Shown here one piece after another: positions 31,901-41,611 of a stretch of DNA of 64,000 nt. Location: NCBI GenBank assembly GCA_026874595.1, contig CM049318.1:32086956-32150955 (forward strand). Direction: 5' to 3'. The position numbers were made by a program, and so were the translations under genes. The stretch is from Sipunculus nudus (lineage: Eukaryota > Annelida > Sipuncula > Golfingiida > Sipunculidae). The notes under the pieces are model-generated. The model did no database searches and was not told the DNA's origin. It was given only the letters and a program-made list of their open reading frames with translations. Every line of letters starts with the position of its first letter. Position 1 is the first letter of the stretch.

Positions 31901-34900
31901 AAAAGTCTTCATGTACTCTGCGGTGAGTTTCTATGCCTTTATTTGCAATAACAGGAACATTAGTGTTGAGCTTTAGTGTTTCTTCTGGTGTGTAAGGCCT
32001 GTCCTCTACCACAAGGTGGCACCCTTTGCTGACATGGCATGTGACAGAAATGGTTTTGCTAGTTTATCATCCCCTGTCGGTAAATCAGCCTTACCCAAAG
32101 TGATTTATGCACAAAATTAGTGCTTAAATCCAGGATTATGTTTATTAGAAGCAGCATGACAGAGTAACATGAAAGTGTCTGGACCTTTATATGATGAAAC
32201 TGCATACATATTTTTACTTTATAATCACAAAAGTTGCAACTCTGTAAAGTAGACACAAGTTGAAAATCAGAGAAAATTTAACAAATTTCATGATAATTTT
32301 AGCATATCTAGTGCCCTAGATGCCCATTTTAGTATTCCTGGAAAGTGCTCCAAATAGACCTTTTCCACAAGCCTGCGCACTGCGTTTGTTTGAGCAGGGT
32401 TCAGGTCTGCAGGGTTTAGGTCATCTGAACAAACAGGTGAGACAAAGACATCGAGTATTCAGGTGTCTAAAGTTAATAAATACTAGGTAGAATGCTACTA
32501 TATTATAGCTAGATAGCTTCTTATTTTTGTAATATGACCAAAAATAAAGGAATTAACATCATTATTTTGGTGACGTATGTACCGTGGATTGTCAGATATA
32601 GAAACGTTCAAAACATACAGCGTTTCCTAATTGAACCATTTTGTTCAGGTCCTCACGGTTATCAAGGATGCTTTAACTTGTAGTATAAGTTATGTAACTA
32701 CAACTGAGCCAAAAACACAACCTCTTTGCCGTGGATTACCATGCATGTGTATGCTATAACCCCGAAACATACATGTTAGATATCTCTGATAGGTGTCGCT
32801 AGTGAAATGGAAAAGATCTATTGAAGTTAAGTGAACCAATCATATTCAAGTACTGCATCCGAGTTCTGTTCATAAGCTGTGTAACCTATTTAAACAGAGC
32901 CTTTCCCAGTAAACTATACTCTTACCTTCACACCACTTCAGGACTCCCGCCACGACTCATAAAAACTATAATGCACCCCAGCCTCTCATCAATCTATATA
33001 TAATGTTTTTACTCATGTTTTTATTGATGTACTTTTAATATGTAACTTTAAAGACGGGACTTTTTTGTGCCCCACCTTTCCCATATCATGTATTGTTCTC
33101 AGTTTCAGACTCTGAAGCATCATTATGACCATTGGACCCTATTTCTCATGAAAGACTGTTTTCTGTGTGGATGTATATGTGTGGTTGCACAAATGGTCCT
33201 GTAACATGATGTTGATGAAAACTCCTGATAACAAGCCGCCCAAGACTCTGACATGAGAATTTTTTCATTCCTTTCAATATGACATAGACTAGCTAGGATA
33301 CAATTTCTGTTCTACATACCATGTTTGTATGTGTCTTGTAGGATATGACTCACTGACTTCGGAGAACAGACTGTCATGTTTATTTTTTGTTGTTTTAGCA
33401 TGACAGTACTGTAGCCGCCTTGCTGAGTGCCATGGATATATACGACAGAATACCTCCGCCTTTTGCTGCCGCTGTAATGATAGAGCTGTACAACGATAGC
33501 GGGAAATATGACGTCAAAATCTACTACAATAATGACACTGAAGTGGACGTGTCAACAAAGCCACATCCACTGGTCACAAAAGGTGAGTAAATATAGAAAG
33601 GTAAATCTGTGTTTATTATAGGTTTGCTTTGGTTTAATATGTCCTGCTCATTGTACAACTGTCATTTAACATTCAGTGTCATTGGATAACTTACCAGGTA
33701 TTTGATGGATTTTCATGATACAAGTTATAGATTAATAAATAAAAAAAAGTTTATCTAGTTTCTATTTCAGTTTTTGCAGAATCGATTTATATTTCATGAG
33801 TTCAGAGGTCACCAGGTTTCTTTGTAGTGTCACCGTAATAACTTACCTGGAATTTGCTGGATATTCATTAAAATTGATATAACTACATGAATATACCATA
33901 AGTTTATCTAGTTCTATTAAATTCACAGCAAAATTCATTTATATTTTAACTAAAGGAATATGATACATTTTGATGCAATGATATGAATAATCAGCTCAAA
34001 TGAGGATCAGTCTGTTCAGATATGTATGAACACAGCATTTAGGGTCTGTCTGTTTTCAATTCACAGGGTGCACCATTGATTCTTGTGAGCTGGAAAAATT
34101 TGCCGAATCTATGAAGAAGAACATTCCACGTGACCGGAATGCAGAGTGTAGAGTGGGTAAAATATCTAAACGTAAGTACCTAATGCAGGGTGTAGAGTGA
34201 ATAAAATATCTAAACATAAGTACCAAATGCAGAGTGTAGAGTGAATAAAATATCTAAAAGTAAGTACCAAATGCAGAGTGTAGATTGAATAAGATATCTT
34301 AACGTAAGTACCTGATGCATAGTGAAGAGTGTATAAAATATTTAAAAGCAAGTACCAAATGCTGAGTGTATGGTGAATAAAATATCTAAATGAAAGTACC
34401 AAATGCAGAGTGTAAACTGAATAAAATATCTAAACATTAGAACCAAATAAAAAAATTTAAACGTAAGTTCCAAATGCAGAGTGTAGAGTGAATAAAATAT
34501 CTAAAAGTAAGTACCAAATGCAGAGTGTAGAGTGAATAAAATATCTAAACGTAAGTTCCAAATGCAGAGTGTAGATTGAATAAGATATCTTAATGTAAGT
34601 ACCCGATGCATAGTGAAGAGTGTATAAAATATTTAAAAGCAAGTACCAAATGCAGAGTGCAAAGTGAATAAAATATCTAAACATAAGTTCCAAATGCAGA
34701 GTGTAGAGTGAATAAAATATCTAAAAGTAAGTACCAAATGCAGAGTGTAGAGTGAATAAAATATCTAAAAGTAAGTTCCAAATGCAGAGTGTAGAGTGAA
34801 TAAAATATCTAAAAGTAAGTACCAAATGCAGAGTGCAGAGTGAATAAAATATCCAAACGTAAGTTCCAAATGCAGAGTGTAGAGGGAATAAAATATCTAA

Positions 34901-37900
34901 ACATAAGTTCCAAATGCAGAGTGTAGAGTGAATAAAATATCTAAAGTAAGTACCAAATGCAGAATGCAGAGTGAATAAAATATCTAAACGTAACTTCCAA
35001 ATGCAGAGTGCAGAGTGAATAAAATATCTAAAAGTAAGTACCAAATGCAGAGTGCAGAGTGAATAAGATATCTAAACGTAAGTACCAAATGCTGAGTGTA
35101 GAGTGAATAAAATATCTAAAAGTAAGTACCAAATGCAGAGTGCAGAGTGAATAAAATATCTAAACATAAGTTCCAAATGCAGAGTGTAGAGTGAATAAAA
35201 TATCTAAAAGTAAGTACCAAATGCAGAGTGCAGAGTGAATAAAATATCCAAACGTAAGTTCCAAATGCAGAGTGTAGAGTGAATAAAATATCCAAACATA
35301 AGTTCCAAATGCAGCGTGTAGAGTGAATAAAATATCTAAATGAAAGTACCAAATGCAGAGTGTAAACTGAATAAAATATCTAAACATTAGAACCAAATGT
35401 AGAGTGTAGAGTGAATAAAATATCCAAACTTAAGTTCCAAATGCAGAGTGCAGAGTGAATAAAATATCTAAACATAAGTACCCAATGCAGAGTGCAGAGT
35501 GAATAAAATATCCAAACGTAAGTTCCAAATGCAGAGTGTAGAGTGAATAAATATCCAAACATAAGTTCCAAATGCAGAGTGTAGAGTGAATAAAATATCT
35601 AAAATTAAGTACCAAATGCAGAGTGCAGAGTGAATAAAATATCTAAACGTAGGTTCCAAATGCAGAGTGCAGAGTGAATAAAATATCTAAAAGTAAGTAC
35701 CAAATGCAGAGTGCAGAGTGAATAAAATATCTAAATGTAAGTACCAAATGCAGAGTGTAGAGTGAATAAAATATCTAGAAGTAAGTACCAAATGCAGAGT
35801 GCAGAGTGAATAAAATATCTAAATGTAAGTTCCAAATGCAGAGTGTAGAGTGAATAAAATATCTAAAAGTAAGTACCAAATGCAGAGTGTAGAGTGAATA
35901 AATATCTAAACGTAAGTTCCAAATGCAGAGTGTAGAGTGAATAAAATATATAAAAGTAAGTACCAAATGCAGAGTGTAGATTGAATAAGATATCTTAACG
36001 TAAGTACCCGATGCATAGTGAAGAGTGTATAAAATATTTAAAAGCAAGTACCAAATGCTGAGTGTATGGTGAATAAAATATCTAAATGAAAGTACCAAAT
36101 GCAGAGTGTAAACTGAATAAAATATCTAAACATTAGAACCAAATAAAATATCTAAATGTAAGTTCCAAATGCAGAGTGTAGAGTGAATAAAATATCTAAA
36201 AGTAAGTACCAAATGCAGAGTGTAGAGTGAATAAAATATCTAAACGTAAGTTCCAAATGCAGAGTGTAGAGTGAATAAAATATCTAAAAGAAAGTACCCA
36301 ATGCAGAGTGAATAAAATATCTAAATGTAAGTACCCAGTGCAGAGTGTAGAGTGAATAAAATATCTAAAAGTAAGTACCGAATCATGAGAAAGAGTGAAT
36401 AAAATGTCTAAATGTAAGTACCCAGTGCAGAGTCTAGAGTGAATAAAATATCTACAAGTAACAACTGAATCATGAGAAAGAGTGAATAAAATATCTAAAT
36501 GAAAGTACCCAATGCAGAGTGCAGAGTGAATAAAATATCTAAATGAAAGTACCGAATGCTGAGTCTAGAGTGAATAAAATATCTAAATGTATGGACAGAG
36601 TTCTGAGTGAATAAAATATCTAAAAGTAAGTACTGAATCTTGAGAAAGAGTGAATAAAATATCTAAATGAAAGTACCCAATGCAGAGTGCAGAGTGAATA
36701 AAATATCTAAATGAAAGTACCGAATGCTGAGTGTAGAGTGAATAAAATATCTAAATGAAAGTACCCAATGCAGAGTGCAGGGTGAATAAAATATCTAAAT
36801 GAAAGTACCGAATGCAGAGTGCAGAGTGAATAAAATATCTAAATGAAAGTACCCAGTGCAGAGTGTATAAAATATCTAAATGAAAGTACCCAATGCAGAG
36901 TGCAGAGTGAATAAAATATCTAAATGAAAGTACCAAATGCTGAGTGTAGAGTGAATAAAATATCTAAACTAGACGACCATAGGTCGAACGCTTGCCGGAA
37001 AATCGGAAGTGAAACACAGACGGACAGACAGAACATATTGTCGGTTTTCTATCAATTGAATGACTCTCAGGGCCATTGCTGAGAATATATGGCCCGTAGA
37101 ATGACATATGAGACAAAAGAACAGGCAACCAGACAAAGCTGACAACAAAAGACGAACAGACAGACATACTGACTTTGTGAGACAAGATTGACACCAGATG
37201 ACTTAACCTAGTTATGGAGAAGATTCAAAGGAAGAAAATTAGTCATAATTTATGTAATTTAGATTTGTAGTTTTGGAGGTATGGCGAATTAATGATATAC
37301 TTGGGAGGTTCGACATTAGCGCCCTCTAGCGGACATATTCCGAAGACGACAAATGCGTTTCGTATTATTAGTGTATGACATGAGATGTCCCAGTTTCAAA
37401 AGGATTCCGTCAAAGCTGTGGCCTGTAGAATGCTATATGGAAGGCGTAAGAACCAGCTAGCAGGCAACTTTGAAGATAACGGACAAACAGATGGACACAC
37501 TGACAAAGTGACAGAAGTTTGAAACCAGATGCCTTAATCAGAATATGGAGAAGACTCAAAGGAAGAAAATAAGCTATAGTTTATGTAACTGAGGCTTTGG
37601 GTGTAGAGATATGGCCAATACAATGGTATGTGAGTGAGGGTCGTGTGCAGCACCCACTAGTGGCCATATCCGGAAAATGAAAAATTTATTTCGAGATATT
37701 AGTGTAAGACATAAGATGTAATAGTTTCAAAAGGATTCCGTCAAAACTGTGGCCTATAGAATGCTATATGTGAGACACAAGAACCAACAAGCAGGCGAAT
37801 TTGAGGACAACTGACAAACAGACGAACACACTGACAAAGTGACTCAAGATTGAGTCCAGATGACTACACCAGGTTATGGAGTAGACTCAAAGGAAGAAAA

Positions 37901-40900
37901 AAGCTAAAGTTTATGTAACTGAGGTTTATAGTTTTGGAGATATTGCCAAAGCATGATATGTTGGGAGAGGTATGAGTTCAGTGCCCCCTAGCAGCCATAT
38001 CCGGAAAATGAAAAATTAGTTTTGAGATATCAGTGTAAGACTTAAGATGTAATAGTTTAAAAAGGATTCTTTCAAAACTGTGGCCTGCAGAATGCTATAT
38101 GTGAGAAGCAACTGACAAACAGACGAACACACTCACAAAGTGACTCAAGATTGAGCCCAGATGACTACTCCAGGTTATGGAGAAGACTCAAAGGAAGAAA
38201 AAAGCTACAGTTTATGTAACTGAGGTTTATAGTTTTGGAGATATTGCCAAAGCATGATATGTTGGGAGAGGTTCGAGTTCAGCGCCCCCTAGCAGCCATA
38301 TCCAGAAATAAATTGGTTTTGAGATATAAGTGTAAGACTTATGATGTAATAGTTTAAAAAGGATTCTTTCAAAACCTAGGCCTGTAGAATGCTATATGTG
38401 AGACGCAAGAGCAAGCAGGCGAATTTGAAGACAACTGACAAAAAAGACAGACACACTGACAAAGTGACACAAAATTGTGACCAGATGACTACACCAGGTT
38501 ATGGAGAAGACTCAGAGAAAGAAAATAAGCTATAGTTTATGTTATTGAGGCTTATAATGTTGGAGATATGGCCAAAATATGATATGTTGGGGAGTTTTAC
38601 ATCCAGCGCCCCCTGGTGGCCCTATCCAAAAAATGAAAAAACAAAGTCAAGATACTAGGGTAAGACTTGAAATATATCAGTTTTAAAAAAAAATTCCTGC
38701 AAAACTGTGGCCTCCAGGGCAAGATTAATGAAATCTCGAAATATCTCGTTTGATGATATATCTTACGAGATATTGCCAGACTTTTAATAAAATCATGTAG
38801 TACTAAACGAATGCTACCTGATGCAAAAAACTAGACCTCTCTAGCATTAAAACTGACAAATTAGTCCATTCATTTTCAAATATGATAATTTTTCCCCGAA
38901 AATGTGTTACAATGATAATGGCAAATTTGAGTCAGGTACCCATCAGAAGAAAGGCCATTGGATGACGATTAAAATGAACTGTAGTTCAAGTAGATACGAC
39001 TAATAGTTACAAAGATATGAAGAAAAACCCGTTTTGTATACTTTTGATGACCTCGACCTTGACCTCTGACCTATTTGGATCAAAAACAATAGGGCACCTA
39101 GAATTTTGTTTGTCCATCATCTCTGAAAGTTTCAAGGTGATGGTGGCTAAATTGTGGCCAGGAAAGTGCAGACAAACAAACAAACAGACAAACAGACATA
39201 CGCAACTAACCAATATGCTTGCCGAAATCTTTGATTCCGGCAAGCAATGAAAGTACCGAATGCAGAGTGCAGAGTGAATAAAATATCTAAATGAAAGTAC
39301 CAAATGCAGAGTGCAGAGTGAATAAAATATCTAAATGAAAGTACCCAATGCAGAGTGCAGAGTGAATAAAATATCTAAATGAAAGTACCAAATGCTGAGT
39401 GTAGAGTGAATAAAATATCCAAATGTAAGTACCCAGTGCAGAGTGAATTAAATATTTAAAAGTAAGTATCAAATCATGAGAAAGAGTGAATAAAATATCT
39501 AAACATAATTACCCAATGCAGATGCAGAGGGAATACAATATCTAAACGTAAGTACCCGGTAGCATGTAGTATTATGTTTTTATGCCAAAATAACCTTTGT
39601 ATACTGGATTATGTAATACCCATCATCATTATGTTTCATAAATATTGTGTTTGTTTCTATGCTAAATTATATAACACATATTATTATTTGTTAACTGTGT
39701 TTTCAATCATACTGCAGTTTGTATACGTGTCATATTTTATATTATCTGGCCCCTGGCCAATGGTCCCAACCTTTCACAAAATGTCACAGAAATCAATTCA
39801 GTAATTTCTGTGTAATTCTTATAAAAGCAAACCAACAGACACAGGAGAACATACATTTTGGTTGAAGTTACAACTGGTCATGCCTCAGGTCCTGGCTATG
39901 TATGTATAAAGGTGGCGTTCCATTATGTGTATGGACTATGTATGGGTTACGTATGTGTATGCAGCTAGGAATCACACACATTATATTTTCACAGAGTGAT
40001 TTCACATATTTATATGTGTATATATGTGTGAGTATGCAACATGTTCTGATCACTCAGTGAAGTGATTAAAAACACATACGTGTCGTAACGGACACGGAAA
40101 TTCATAAATTTGACACCAGCGATAAGGTTATTTCTCCAGCATATGACTAGATTCAACTCATCCAGCTCTGTACTATAGGCCCAAATATTACAGCATTTTG
40201 CACAGTATATGCATACATAATAATGGCATCACAGGTATTTGTTTTCTGGCTGCATATGCATATGTACTGCATACACATATGTACTGCATATATGGAATCC
40301 TAGCTTAAAACAAACAAATCAAAACCATGTAGATACCTATCTTGGTTCCTTAACAGTGGGCTCCTCACACAGACTTTATACACTGCCGTCATCCCAGGCC
40401 TCCTTTCTTGTAACAGCTGCTTTGTATAGCAACTTATCTAAATTCTCCTGGTTCGACCACCAGGATGGGTACAGACCAATGAAGTTACACCGGGACACCA
40501 GCTGGTCTGGTTCTTGGATCTGTGCCAGAAACGATGTTATCAGACCAAAGAGAGTGGGTGTCACATATTTAAAATTTGAAGCTTGATGCACTATATGAAA
40601 CAGTGAAACCCTTGGCTGTGGACACCCCTCTAAGGCGGACAACCAGTGTAACGGACAGTCTTCAGGATGACCAAATGTTTTTACTTCTTTAAGAACCCCT
40701 CTGGGGCAGACACCCTGCTATTCAGTAAACAGAGGCTTTTTGTCTTACCAACAGTTAAAATCAGCCCCATAAACAGACACCGCATGACCGGCATGGCTGG
40801 TGACAGTACAGATACCTTGTAACTGGAAATATGTTTTGCTTCTGGTACACTTCTCACCACTCTTAAAATAATCAAATTATTTAAACAGGTAGCAATAACT

Positions 40901-41611
40901 ACAAAACAAACAACATGTGCACTAAATTTATCTTCAAGTAAGTTTGTTATTTGCGACTTCTAGGCATTTGTAAAGATTATTATTTAAAGTGTTGCCCAAA
41001 AGTTACAGTATATGCAGAATTTCCATTAAGCCAAACTTTCACAGAAGTGATATTGTCATCCTGATTTTCCAGGCCTCATTATTCTATCATAGGCCTGGAA
41101 CCGAGGATAATATATATGAACAAAAAAAACTTTATGGATGACCTGACCCACTCTTTGGCAGACACCCTGCCATAATGGACAAATTTGCCGGTCCCCTGAC
41201 TTTCCACGTTAGAGGGGTTTCACTGTACCATGCTCTGATTGGTTTGATTACCCTTCTTTACTCTGTGCCCACCCTGACTGTCAAACCGAGAGAATCTTGC
41301 AGCCGTTAAAGGAAAGGAGATCAGGATCAAGTGTACAACCACTGCACTGGGAACATATATATACTGTCACACTGAAGACATACCTCCTATATTAATGTCA
41401 GTATTGTCACCTGTGTTACTCTTTTGATGATATGTCACTCAGAAGAATAAACAACACAAATTCCTTTTTATTTTATCCAGTTACATATTTCATCATTGGA
41501 GGAGTGGCTGCATTCTTGGTTGTCATTACCATCTTGATTGTTGTCATCTGTTGTATCCGGAAAAGGCAACGAAGATATGTTAGCTACTATGGACTGGCTC
41601 AAGATGGCTGA
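8941..41611 (+). CDS. ACP2: Lysosomal/prostatic-type acid phosphatase, complete, 11 coding exons
   Basis: A histidine acid phosphatase that hydrolyses phosphomonoesters at low pH in the lysosome or outside the cell. Exons: 8941-9033, 21334-21426, 23102-23203, 24218-24370, 25324-25419, 26307-26396, 28884-29022, 31834-31922, 33399-33582, 34067-34171, 41481-41611. All borders are GT-AG and the phases match, giving 424 residues; human ACP2 has 423. Residues 1-22 or so are a signal peptide. VYRHGARSP (32-40) holds the nucleophile His35 with Arg34 and Arg38. DRTLMSAQANLAGL and WQPIPVHT are family blocks, and HD at 286-287 is the proton-donor motif. N-glycosylation sequons include NDSS, NST, NKT, NFT and NDT. 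A transmembrane helix spans about 383-406. The tail contains RKRQRR and YYGL, a YxxPhi-like sorting signal. Whether it is the strict ACP2 orthologue or a lineage-specific ACP2/ACP3 relative cannot be settled here. Confidence 0.94.
9895..10209. mobile_element. Short TA-flanked inverted-repeat element (CAGTA ends)
   Basis: The left end is CAGTAGAACTTT. The right end reads CAGTATAGCCTCTAATTTCC on the opposite strand. TA dinucleotides at 9893-9894 and 10210-10211 flank the element, as expected for a Tc1/mariner-pogo type target duplication. It is 315 bp with no ORF, so it would be a non-autonomous (MITE-like) copy. The inverted ends are imperfect. Confidence 0.6.
10945..11300. repeat. Tandem duplication (about 190 bp x 2) with ATT microsatellites
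   Basis: Two successive copies share AACTTGAATTTAGTA or AACTGGAACTTAGTA, GGTACAAAAACATTTGT, AGAGTACCTATTGAATATGGT, an (ATT)n run and TTATAACTTGGAATAAATGT. The ATT runs are at about 11047-11070 and 11220-11262. It lies in phosphatase intron 1. Confidence 0.8.
11326..11342. repeat. Poly-C tract
   Basis: An uninterrupted C run of about 17 bases after GAGT. A second one of about 10 bases lies near 11991-12000. Simple sequence in an intron. Confidence 0.85.
12438..12800. mobile_element. Long-inverted-repeat (foldback/MITE-like) element
   Basis: The two halves are reverse complements over most of their length. The left arm, GGAATACCCCGGAATACCGC ... GGGCTAAATCGGAATTTTAAATTGTCATCA ... ACCTTACAGACC, pairs with the right arm, GGTCTGTAAGGTCTTTACCAG ... 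TGATGACAATTTAAAATTCTGGTTTAGCCC ... GCGGTATTCTGGGGTATTCC. Arms of about 140-150 bases flank a spacer of about 60 bases. No ORF. Such a palindrome could form a long hairpin in the pre-mRNA. Confidence 0.8.
12876..12957. mobile_element. Extra copy of the left end of the adjacent GGTCC-tipped element
   Basis: GGTCCCCCAAAACACCGGTG, then GTTTTGGGTATCTGTGACAA and CACCTTGAAACACCCACTCA, repeats the left terminus of the 12971-13437 element about 95 bases upstream in the same orientation. It is preceded by tataacaggc, similar to the target-like sequence of the full copy. Confidence 0.75.
12971..13437. mobile_element. Inverted-repeat element with target-site duplication (GGTCC tips)
   Basis: The left end is GGTCCCCCCTTAAGACCCAAAACACC. 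The right end on the other strand is GGTCCGCCTAAACACCCAAAACACC. Similarity of the arms continues through TTTGGGTATCTGTGACAAAACACC and GAAACACCC for about 100 bases. The element is bounded by tattacagat (12961-12970) and tattacaggt (13438-13447), a one-mismatch direct repeat that looks like an 8-10 bp target duplication, as in hAT-like elements. There is no transposase ORF. Confidence 0.75.
15018..16010 (+). repeat. Repeat block: element end plus five 179-bp tandem units
   Basis: The block starts with ATGCCCCCGCCACAAAGTGG CCGGGGCAT and a (GTCCTTCC)n stretch. Five units of about 179 bases follow, beginning near 15102, 15282, 15461, 15640 and 15820. Each has GTACGGACTTTTTTTCGCAA, TGCCTGCAGATATTGGCCTG, GTTACAGATTGAGTTCGCGT and AAAATTTCATGAAAAATAGA. 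Open frames across the units are a by-product of the repeat. Two more diverged units lie at 19284-19620. Confidence 0.85.
16011..19670 (+). mobile_element. Nested mosaic of dispersed elements
   Basis: From 16011 and again from 16252, new element ends appear (TTTTAGCCCTCAGCTCATAG and TTTTAGCTCAGCTGACTATA). Both are followed by GTCCGTCC-rich sequence. The second is followed by two diverged copies of a roughly 620-base segment (16360-16980 and 17050-17690), recognisable by AAATTCGGCATA, TTATGGGCCCAAACATAATGCA and GACCATGGCACG. At 18810-19640 the sequence returns to a relative of the 15.1-kb repeat. It closes with CAGGCAGGGGCATTCGTGTC, the mirror of the start at 15018. This suggests one element interrupted by others. 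No intact ORF. Confidence 0.55.
19855..19921. repeat. (TA)n microsatellite
   Basis: About 33 uninterrupted TA dinucleotides in phosphatase intron 1. The true length is hard to assemble. Confidence 0.97.
20280..20350. repeat. Diverged dispersed segment, relative at 24975-25080
   Basis: ACTATCTTCCATTCACCTGTTT, then CTGTGTGTgAG and CTGTTTACCAAAACAAGAATG, is matched in order at 24990-25080 (ACTATCTTCAATTTACCTGTTT, CTGTTTACCTTAACAAGAATG). Low-copy repeat of unknown type; the limits are uncertain. Confidence 0.45.
21334..21426 (+). CDS. ACP2: Acid phosphatase exon 2: RHG catalytic motif
   Basis: Thirty-one codons between TTGTATTCCAG and GTATTT encode VYRHGARSPMQ and then FGQLTK. His35 of RHG is the residue phosphorylated during catalysis in this family; Arg34 and Arg38 bind phosphate. 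WKKGFGQLTK matches the GFGQLTKEG block of vertebrate ACP2 and ACP3. Confidence 0.95.
22895..22975. repeat. Degenerate GATA/GATTA microsatellite
   Basis: Interrupted TAGATAGATAGA and GATTAGATTA runs in phosphatase intron 2, with a similar degenerate stretch at 22800-22880. Simple sequence only. Confidence 0.75.
24395..24615. mobile_element. SINE-like dispersed repeat, copy 1
   Basis: Shares TTATACACTGCaaTCgCCCC/gGcCTCCTT, TGTtTAGCAA, GTGcCAGAgcCAAGAATCAGACCA/CAGAGCC and TTTGATGCACTAT with 40365-40590 in the same order. About 220 bases, no ORF of significance, located in intron 4 right after exon 4. The family is unnamed here. Confidence 0.55.
25295..25320. repeat. T-rich tract forming the polypyrimidine tract of exon 5
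   Basis: Two T runs broken by single G bases directly precede the TCTCAG acceptor of exon 5. Confidence 0.7.
26700..27740. repeat. Block of degenerate tandem repeats (ATTTTGCATGTGTATA words)
   Basis: AATTTTGCATGTGTATA-like words recur near 27126, 27234, 27387, 27514 and 27663, each accompanied by GGATAGCTTTCTTGATT or CACATAGCTCTT and GGTGGCGCCACCTGC...CCATTTTTGCACAG. Units are about 110-150 bases. The block lies in intron 6. The open frames seen in it follow the repeat and are not genes. Confidence 0.75.
27865..27952 (+). mobile_element. Possible tRNA-derived SINE head
   Basis: TGGTGAAGTGTTTGGAAC resembles a Pol III A box region. GAGTTCAAATC, about 40 bases later, resembles a B box (GGTTCGANTCC). 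The segment does not fold convincingly into a complete tRNA by eye, so it is taken as a decayed SINE head rather than a tRNA gene. A (GT)n(AT)n microsatellite follows at 28005-28033. Confidence 0.4.
28040..28790 (+). repeat. Five tandem units of about 140 bp (AACAACAACATAC... family)
   Basis: Recurring words are TTTCAGCTTTCCCAAATTCTC, AGGGATgATTGGTACATA, GAGGGCTCCAGACCTATTGAA, ACAGACCTGTCAGAATTCCAA and GCCCAaTtGCTGATTTTCTTT. The units begin near 28130, 28270, 28415, 28560 and (decayed) 28715. A typical mollusc-like TCAGTCCGTATATCCATCC start precedes them. Non-coding, in intron 6. Confidence 0.8.
28884..29022 (+). CDS. ACP2: Acid phosphatase exon 7
   Basis: Encodes NANNFTLPDW (sequon NFT), corresponding to THGLRLPPW of vertebrate ACP2, and then the helical LKQLDALEFDLRY and QLRRLRG. 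Acceptor GTGTTCCAG, donor GTAAGG. It ends in phase 1 and joins exon 8 (31834-31922), which gives GPLLKTIIQNM and KVFMYSA just before the catalytic HD. Confidence 0.93.
29065..30375. repeat. Repeat-derived segment with two copies of a CGCTATTAATATATA end
   Basis: Two stretches, about 29272-29388 and 30258-30375, share AGAGCATATGTATGTCgAAAAT, GTATCAGAGGAGAtA and AATCGCCTTACGCTATTAATATATA. The first begins near ACTAGCAATTACCCGTGC. Between them lies CpG-bearing sequence without a recognisable gene. Probably two related element ends in intron 7. Confidence 0.55.
33399..33582 (+). CDS. ACP2: Acid phosphatase exon 9: HD catalytic motif
   Basis: Starts with HDSTVAALLSAMDIYD, equivalent to HDTTLVALQMALDVYNG in human ACP2. 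The Asp is the proton donor of the family. It continues with FAAAVMIELYNDSGKYDVKI. At the place where the human protein has Cys in YASCHIFELY, this protein has Ala310. Confidence 0.95.
34067..34171 (+). CDS. ACP2: Acid phosphatase exon 10 and its duplicated donor site
   Basis: Encodes GCTIDSCELEKF and then RDRNAECRVGKISK, carrying the three C-terminal cysteines of the luminal domain (GCPHRC and QQEC in human ACP2). Two donors are possible in the same phase. One is GTGG|GTAAAA after 34156. The other is TCTAAAC|GTAAGT after 34171, which is stronger and is the one used here. The last 38 or so bases of the exon plus the donor are the founder sequence of the 44-bp minisatellite that fills the start of the next intron. 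Confidence 0.85.
34172..36968 (+). repeat. 44-bp minisatellite derived from an exon/intron boundary
   Basis: About 63 head-to-tail units, consensus AAATGCAGAGTGTAGAGTGA plus ATAAAATATCTAAA(A/C)GTAAGTACC. The first unit is the real end of exon 10 and its donor (from about 34134). Units differ mainly in the last third: cGTAAGTACC, aGTAAGTACC, cATAAGTTCC, tGAAAGTACC. A run of about 190 bases with unusual variants (gattgaataagatatctta, gcatagtgaagagtgtata, cattagaaccaaat) is present at 34262-34450 and again at 35961-36148, showing larger internal duplication. Long open frames on the minus strand here are by-products. Confidence 0.97.
36969..39247 (+). mobile_element. 2.3-kb insertion that splits the 44-bp array
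   Basis: The array stops after ATATCTAAA at 36968 and resumes at 39248 with ATGAAAGTACCGAATGCAGA. The insert carries GCTTGCCGGAA near its left side (36990) and the reverse complement TTCCGGCAAGC at its right edge (39233-39245). Inside are GACAGAC tracts and about five diverged tandem units of about 320 bases (next entry). There is no transposase ORF. It is probably a non-autonomous element. Confidence 0.7.
37145..38700 (+). repeat. Five tandem units of about 320 bp inside the insertion
   Basis: CTCAAAGGAAGAAAA recurs near 37226, 37556, 37878, 38188 and 38512. Each is followed by AGTTTATGTAACTGAGGTTT, ATGGCCAAAACATGATATG, GCGCCCCCTAGCAGCCATAT and AATAGTTTCAAAAGGATTC. Units are 70-90 percent alike by eye. 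Confidence 0.85.
39248..39555 (+). repeat. 44-bp minisatellite, distal remnant
   Basis: About seven more units after the insertion, mostly of the tGAAAGTACC variant that also fills the distal end of the main array (36500-36968). This supports a single array cut in two by the insertion. Confidence 0.95.
40365..40595. mobile_element. SINE-like dispersed repeat, copy 2
   Basis: Co-linear with 24395-24615 (ACTTTATACACTGCCGTCAT, CCAGGCCTCCTTTCTTGTAA, TTTGATGCACTAT-like TTGATGCACTATA). Contains GGTTCGACCACCAGG, which resembles a Pol III B box. Confidence 0.55.
40601..41225. mobile_element. CAGTGAAACCC inverted-repeat element
   Basis: Left end CAGTGAAACCCTTGGCTG. The right end on the other strand is CAGTGAAACCCCTCTAACGT. 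The tips resemble those of the 50658-50845 element (CAGTGGAACCTC). A TA follows the right end but AA precedes the left, so the expected TA duplication is damaged. 625 bp, no transposase ORF, so a pogo/Tigger-like non-autonomous copy is likely. Confidence 0.65.
41481..41611 (+). CDS. ACP2: Acid phosphatase exon 11: transmembrane anchor and cytoplasmic tail
   Basis: After TTTATCCAG the exon encodes LTYFIIGGVAAFLVVITI and continues hydrophobic to VICC. Then come a basic stop-transfer KRQRR and the tail YVSYYGLAQDG. YYGL fits YxxPhi, the class of signal (GYRHV in human ACP2) that directs the precursor to lysosomes by endocytosis. The stop TGA is at 41609-41611. The membrane anchor is wholly in this exon, so any transcript that does not reach it would encode a soluble enzyme. 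Confidence 0.92.

Follow-up and report, generated by a model that had tools for sequence, protein, structure and literature searches.

The human gene IFI6 (6-16) reportedly harbours a minisatellite of splice donors with a 12-nt unit, which is said to have been described by Turri, Cuin and Porter in 1995 (NAR 23:1854). Two of its downstream repeat units serve as donors, giving rise to three mRNA species, as recounted in a paper that cites this work (PMC4526556). Internal tandem repeats at exon-intron boundaries are also described, in the accessible part of another study, for genes in human segmental duplications, where they affect splicing, vary in copy number among recent paralogs and are associated with novel introns from cryptic sites (PMC2812944). 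Closest to the case presented here are the amphioxus 'mirages', i.e. minisatellite-like tandem duplications across an exon-intron boundary, which the accessible text of two studies places in Adh3, the globins BflGb6 and BflGb9, PGBD5 and troponin C, and of which it states that splice signals occur in many copies, that the length is unstable and that normal splicing is undisturbed (PMC3087553, PMC3902484). We describe a comparable locus in the annelid Sipunculus nudus, in a window of 64,000 nucleotides (the whole stretch of DNA that was analysed: positions 32,086,956 to 32,150,955 of contig CM049318.1, assembly GCA_026874595.1; positions below are those of the window and its features lie on the forward strand unless indicated otherwise). 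It concerns an acid phosphatase gene in which the end of one exon, together with the adjoining 5' splice site, recurs as a tandem array. We consider it probable that this is a mirage-type minisatellite, in which the end of exon 10 and the start of the intron were copied in tandem and expanded, the first donor still working.

The host gene encodes, by homology, a prostatic-type histidine acid phosphatase. The gene model was checked for the last three exons, and the exon numbers follow those of an original prediction that was made for this DNA from its letters alone. Exons 9-11, when joined, match prostatic acid phosphatase (PAP) chains (phmmer E-value 1.8e-17 to 1rpa_A) and contain the PAP-like features of a conserved HD motif, a C-terminal E-C pair and then a transmembrane exon. 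Exon 9 (33399-33582) starts with HDSTV and ends AAAAG/GTGAGT (slashes mark exon-intron boundaries). Exon 10 (34067-34171, 105 nt, phase 1) encodes GCTIDSC...IPRDRNAEC, which aligns to PAP up to the E-C pair; the best PAP alignment ends at this pair, which is encoded by GAGTGT within the first unit of the array. The exon ends AAAC/GTAAGT and, in the gene model, splices from this main donor at 34172, in frame and in phase 1, to the terminal coding exon at 41481 (41481-41611), which provides a transmembrane helix (its hydrophobicity was judged by eye) and a short tail, the reading frame closing with VTYFIIGGVAAFLVVITILIVVICCIRKRQRRYVSYYGLAQDG and a stop codon.

A paralog of the gene, located 10 Mb away (exon match at G000:C13:22134626; L005), has at the corresponding place an intron of 265 nt with one GTAAGT and no tandem array. 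Its exon ends ...CNQLPFHMTK plus one base/GTAAGTATA (boundary ACAAAAT/GTAAGTA, phase 1) and is followed by a hydrophobic exon, and the exon in the window ends ...CRVGKISK plus one base/GTAAGTACC. The two boundaries have the phase, the lysine and the first seven intron bases in common, so that the boundary is older than the array. Acid phosphatase loci are also present on contigs C2, C3, C4 and C15, of which those on C4 and C15 yielded no usable comparison for exon 10. The first unit contains the E-C pair of the solved phosphatases, and the paralog, itself without an array, shows a boundary that matches; the array was thus most probably founded by the end of exon 10, in agreement with the founder role that the original prediction had assigned to this boundary. 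As in the mirages, the unit spans an exon-intron boundary, of which the exon is backed by homology and by the paralog.

The 44-bp unit combines 34 nt from the 3' end of exon 10 with the 10 nt that open the following intron. Tandem Repeats Finder reports an array with a period of 44 and 65.8 copies at 34138-36969, where a wrap-around alignment places 66 unit slots, some of them partial, namely the founder unit (unit 1, 34138-34181: exon 10 end plus 10 nt of intron) and the main array of slots 2-66 (34182-36969). The same alignment recovers a distal continuation of 8 further slots at 39246-39556, the first being a 13-nt remnant and the last ending CGTAAGTACC. The array starts inside the exon and its final unit finishes with the intron part of the unit. 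The array that had been noticed earlier is therefore real, but its estimated size of about 63 copies and start at 34134 are replaced by 66 plus 8 slots and a start at 34138, and the distal part had gone unmentioned. The two parts are separated by a high-copy mobile element (36970-39245, no strand assigned) with recurrent ends and array sequence on both sides. In the genome searched (1.43 Gb in 153 contigs) its first 214 nt gave 40 scored matches at 97-100%, which are the best 40 of 1953 first-look candidates, and its last 181 nt gave 45 matches (1361 candidates, 40 scored). The left end is CTAG beside a short hairpin, and the insertion looks like a non-autonomous Helitron-like element. It also contains 331-bp internal repeats (3.1 copies by Tandem Repeats Finder) and ACAG-type short repeats near both ends. 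Because the 2.3 kb between the two parts is an insertion with ends that recur throughout the genome, and units lie on both sides of it, the proximal and distal parts were formerly one array. A genome query with two units returned 47 of 47 matches at this locus, a count that is a lower bound, and in view of this result a mobile-element origin of the unit was rejected. Within the array a block of about four variant units is found nearly unchanged at 34270-34444 and at 35966-36133, i.e. 1.7 kb apart, and its recurrence is a sign of long-range exchange.

The donor hexamer could be read in 71 of the 74 slots: it is GTAAGT in 36 (33 + 3 by direct scan, founder included), another GT sequence in 4 and a GC sequence in 3, and 28 units have neither GT nor GC. 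Many but not all copies thus keep the splice signal, as in the mirages and as had been remarked from the letters of this DNA, where the loss in other copies had also been seen. GTAAGT is retained in 15 of 23, 13 of 24 and 8 of 24 units of the successive thirds of the array, and the first two thirds differ from the last one with a Fisher p of 0.047, a value to be read with the relatedness and consequent non-independence of the units in mind. The losses comprise 15 TGAAAGT, 10 units that carry CA at positions -1/+1 and 3 single types, and the amplified TGAAAGT variant accounts for 12 of the 14 that fall in the distal third. The proximal-to-distal trend of the original prediction is weakened by this: it mostly reflects a single allele, and 10 of the 28 losses fit a CpG change. 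As the distal decay consists mostly of one amplified variant plus CpG-type losses, it provides no evidence of selection, and selection as its cause, although possible, is not supported.

The role of CpG follows from the dinucleotide at -1/+1, which is TG in 23, AG in 21, CG in 14, CA in 10 and another in 3 of the 71 units: a C-G that straddles the exon-intron boundary is a CpG, and all ten units with a G-to-A change in the donor have a C before it. The CA losses and the C-to-T step that precedes TGAAAGT fit a CpG change, whereas the T-to-A loss at +2 does not. When 69 of the 74 slots are arranged in a neighbour-joining tree, 7 changes fall on the donor G and 5 on its T, compared with a mean of 1.5 per exonic column. 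No more than 5 of the 44 windows of six columns, one of them being that of the donor itself, are as variable as the donor hexamer.

These data lead us to the following scenario. A tandem duplication of this 34-nt end of exon 10, together with the adjoining 10 nt of intron, would have been followed by unequal exchange and expansion to about 70 units, and a mobile element would later have split the array. The original boundary, situated at the 5' edge, would have remained under coding and splicing constraint, and the intronic copies would have been freer to mutate, with the CpG across the splice junction as a frequent site of change. Most likely, the first donor is still in use and the array is removed as one 7.3-kb intron. 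Reading through this donor adds the tail RVGKISKRKYLMQGVE and then meets the first in-frame stop, a TGA at 34198-34200 whose last base is the first base of the AATAAA of unit 2. The many exact decoys that had been predicted downstream of the real donor amount to 35 GTAAGT copies, all 35 of which follow this stop at a distance of 59 nt or more; each of them, if used, would therefore yield the same product, i.e. either a protein without the anchor or a decaying transcript, as a transcript with an early stop is open to nonsense-mediated decay. Many of the copies can still pair with U1, 26 of the 71 units (counting the founder) having a duplex energy of -6.8 kcal/mol or better where the founder has -7.1, and the nine comparable arrays in this genome (see below) and the undisturbed splicing reported for the amphioxus mirages likewise speak for the scenario. 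The array would owe its persistence to an adequate recognition of the first donor, and not to a purging of the copies.

Several observations weigh against this scenario. The use of decoys is a real possibility by analogy with human IFI6, where downstream repeat donors work. The faster change of the donor GT could hint at selection against decoys, and CpG mutation accounts for only part of the excess. Moreover, the U1 duplex energy amounts to -7.1 kcal/mol for the founder donor and to -7.5 for the best copy, and 6 of the 71 units, the founder being one of them, reach -7.1 or better. The founder donor is thus no stronger than the best copies, and the choice of the first donor is not explained by the donor itself. 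Finally, the sequence that was first duplicated need not equal today's exon exactly, since unit 1 has GG where the array consensus has AA at unit positions 19-20 (it departs from the consensus in the last base too), and either pair may be ancestral.

The best surviving alternative, although we hold it to be unlikely, is that the array is regulatory and that exon 10 acts as a switch between a membrane-bound and a soluble phosphatase. Read-through or decoy use would then end at 34198, and the AATAAA motifs would allow intronic polyadenylation, kept in check by U1 on the adjacent donors. Indeed, AATAAA occurs 62 times in the array, compared with 1.5 occurrences per kb in the window outside it, and is present in most copies but not in the founder; 28 of the 62 have a GTAAGT 15-16 nt downstream, and the in-frame stop overlaps the first of them. 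A switch of this type in mammalian PAP presumably operates at the homologous junction. The accessible text of two studies reports that mammalian PAP has a secreted and a transmembrane form that differ in their C-terminus (PMC2617779, PMC3289678). On the other hand, the motif stems from two base differences that were multiplied by copying, the intron of the paralog lacks it, and the other mirages in the genome need no such role. Because its columns are not specially conserved (a mean of 1.33 changes, a level that 13 of the 44 windows of six columns match or fall below), a role of the array AATAAA in polyadenylation is rated possible but unlikely. We give still less credence to the more specific proposal of a self-grown isoform switch, in which the copying of the boundary would have given the gene 62 poly(A) signals directly behind an in-frame stop and ahead of the anchor exon, a U1-binding donor following 28 of these signals. 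If it were true, a loss of U1 cover or a donor decay of the distal type would shift production from membrane-bound to secreted phosphatase, and the length of the array would set the isoform ratio between alleles.

It is similarly improbable, i.e. somewhat more so than a regulatory array, that the true donor of exon 10 is a weaker site, G/GTAAAA at 34157-34162, which lies 15 nt upstream of the main donor inside the founder unit and would make every GTAAGT intronic. This site is in phase 1, would leave the protein uninterrupted and has a U1 energy of -6.5 kcal/mol; it is specific to the founder, as the other aligned units lack the upstream GT and column 20 is A in 68 of the 69 units in the tree. 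The exon of the paralog, however, ends K/GTAAGTA nine codons past the conserved Cys, a distance closer to the seven codons of the downstream site than to the two of the upstream one, and this match favours the GTAAGT at 34172. That the repeat came first, i.e. that a mobile element or minisatellite supplied both exon end and donor as an exonised repeat, is very improbable: a high-copy element does lie inside the array, but as an insertion into it; the genome search placed all 47 matches to the unit, a lower bound, at this locus, the codons for the E-C pair of PAP lie in its first copy, and the paralog shows this boundary with no array attached.

The original prediction had called this an unusual origin for a minisatellite, a view that is not upheld, given that the kind has been published (mirages, PMC3087553, PMC3902484; IFI6) and that nine other arrays, seven of them strong, were found at exon ends in the same genome. 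Arrays were sought as three AGGTAAGT, or three AGGTGAGT, at minisatellite spacing, and among the matches listed, 20 of 22 AGGTAAGT arrays (contigs C1-C4) and 17 of 17 AGGTGAGT arrays (contigs C1-C3) were examined. Upstream of the first donor, the seven well-supported cases show homology to an MRP-type ABC transporter (L026, PDB E-value 8.7e-10), a type I regulatory subunit of PKA (L028, PDB, 1.1e-25), an XPD helicase (L038, PDB, 3e-8), an aquaporin (L077, Pfam, 1.6e-12) and, by Pfam, an LRR protein (L081), TOM20 (L083) and a Kunitz domain (L087); the two weak ones show weaker homology to a PH domain (L025, PDB, 0.0015) and Arv1 (L033, Pfam, 19.5 bits against a cut-off of 20). In the case of L026, L028, L038 and L025 the homology continues through the duplicated bases to the donor, which implies a founder role of the exon in these genes as well; in the case of L077, L081, L083, L087 and L033 the matched domain ends before, or barely at, the duplicated bases. 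Reading through the first donor leads to a stop within 1-14 codons in 8 of the 9 arrays. In the ABC transporter (G000:C2:8512586 onward) the unit is 42 bp, i.e. 14 codons, and the frame stays open for all 99 codons examined, so that later donors, if in use, would insert 14-residue repeats into a membrane domain. Two other arrays deserve mention: 45-bp donor-bearing units fill a 1.5-kb stretch (L040, G000:C4:24481272-24482772, 33.4 copies, with matches down to 24479403), and about 5 kb of 41-bp units bearing AGGTGAGT make up a very large array at G000:C3:57750292-57755173, at whose start (L086) no exon with Pfam homology was found.

In terms of rates, these arrays do not stand out. A Pfam match with E < 0.01 preceded the first donor in 3 of the 20 AGGTAAGT arrays and in 4 of the 17 AGGTGAGT arrays; among the single AGGTAAGT sites the figure was 4 of 32. 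A homologous exon thus lies upstream in 7 of 37 arrays, compared with 4 of 32 for the single sites (Fisher p = 0.53, for samples that are small and imperfectly matched). With the curated Pfam cut-offs the numbers become 0 of 20, 4 of 17 and 3 of 32 (4/37 versus 3/32). The three sets had upstream stretches of about 1200, 700 and 600 nt, respectively, and the baseline was made up of AGGTAAGT sites only; 43 single sites were found, of which nine rows of one array on C12 and two near-identical copies on C15 were left out. Only open reading frames of at least 30 codons were submitted (all 19, 18 and 18), and loci without one were counted as misses, as were L024, L031, L084 and L088 (no donor array by Tandem Repeats Finder, the first pattern match being used) and L040 and L074 (the array fills the stretch and starts beyond it). 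A Pfam match at E 0.01 (L029) was not counted, and PDB searches were made for four AGGTAAGT arrays (L025, L026, L028 and L038), of which L038 and L025 fall outside the Pfam count; Pfam is a yardstick that misses many exons. The raw pattern counts relative to control places (723 versus 589 for AGGTAAGT arrays, 892 versus 436 for AGGTGAGT arrays and 43 versus 75 for single sites) refer to overlapping places in a few large arrays, forward plus reverse, and were not used as a test.

A special affinity of minisatellites for splice sites is therefore unsupported (7/37 versus 4/32, p = 0.53), and there is no hint of an avoidance of donors either. Because arrays and single donor-like sites occur about equally often at exon ends, albeit in small samples, chance seeding suffices to account for the arrays found there. 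The simplest reading is that minisatellites are born anywhere, some of them on exon ends, and that a working first donor lets the copies persist. The similar rates at donors and donor-like sites, in these small and imperfectly matched samples, hint that cells tolerate dozens of decoys. Donor choice among equal sites is usually approached with two-site minigenes. Here, a single genome offers at least eight well-supported genes (the phosphatase plus seven more) in which tandem near-copies trail the genuine 5' splice site, and a comparison of their cDNA junctions would give a direct measure of how cells settle on the first among many equal donors.

With respect to the systems described earlier, none of the papers listed by a search for mirages and by one for exon-boundary minisatellites of molluscs reports, by title and abstract, a mirage outside amphioxus, which is no proof of absence. 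The accessible part of the work on human segmental duplications describes no long donor array like that of Sipunculus (PMC2812944). In human IFI6 the downstream repeat donors are used in mRNA, whereas the use of a decoy in Sipunculus would add the stop at 34198. The amphioxus mirages and the Sipunculus array are alike in having a tandem unit across an exon-intron boundary and splice signals in many of the copies. They differ in extent, as the array counts about 70 units in the one assembly and one haplotype in which it was seen, compared with 6 and 3 units in two amphioxus haplotypes of BflGb6 that the accessible text mentions (PMC3087553). They differ further in the animal genome concerned, in the 36 GTAAGT, in the interruption by a mobile element and in the position of the junction before a membrane anchor. 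The kind is thus already known, and what is new is the set of seven further well-supported cases, plus two weak ones, within the same genome.

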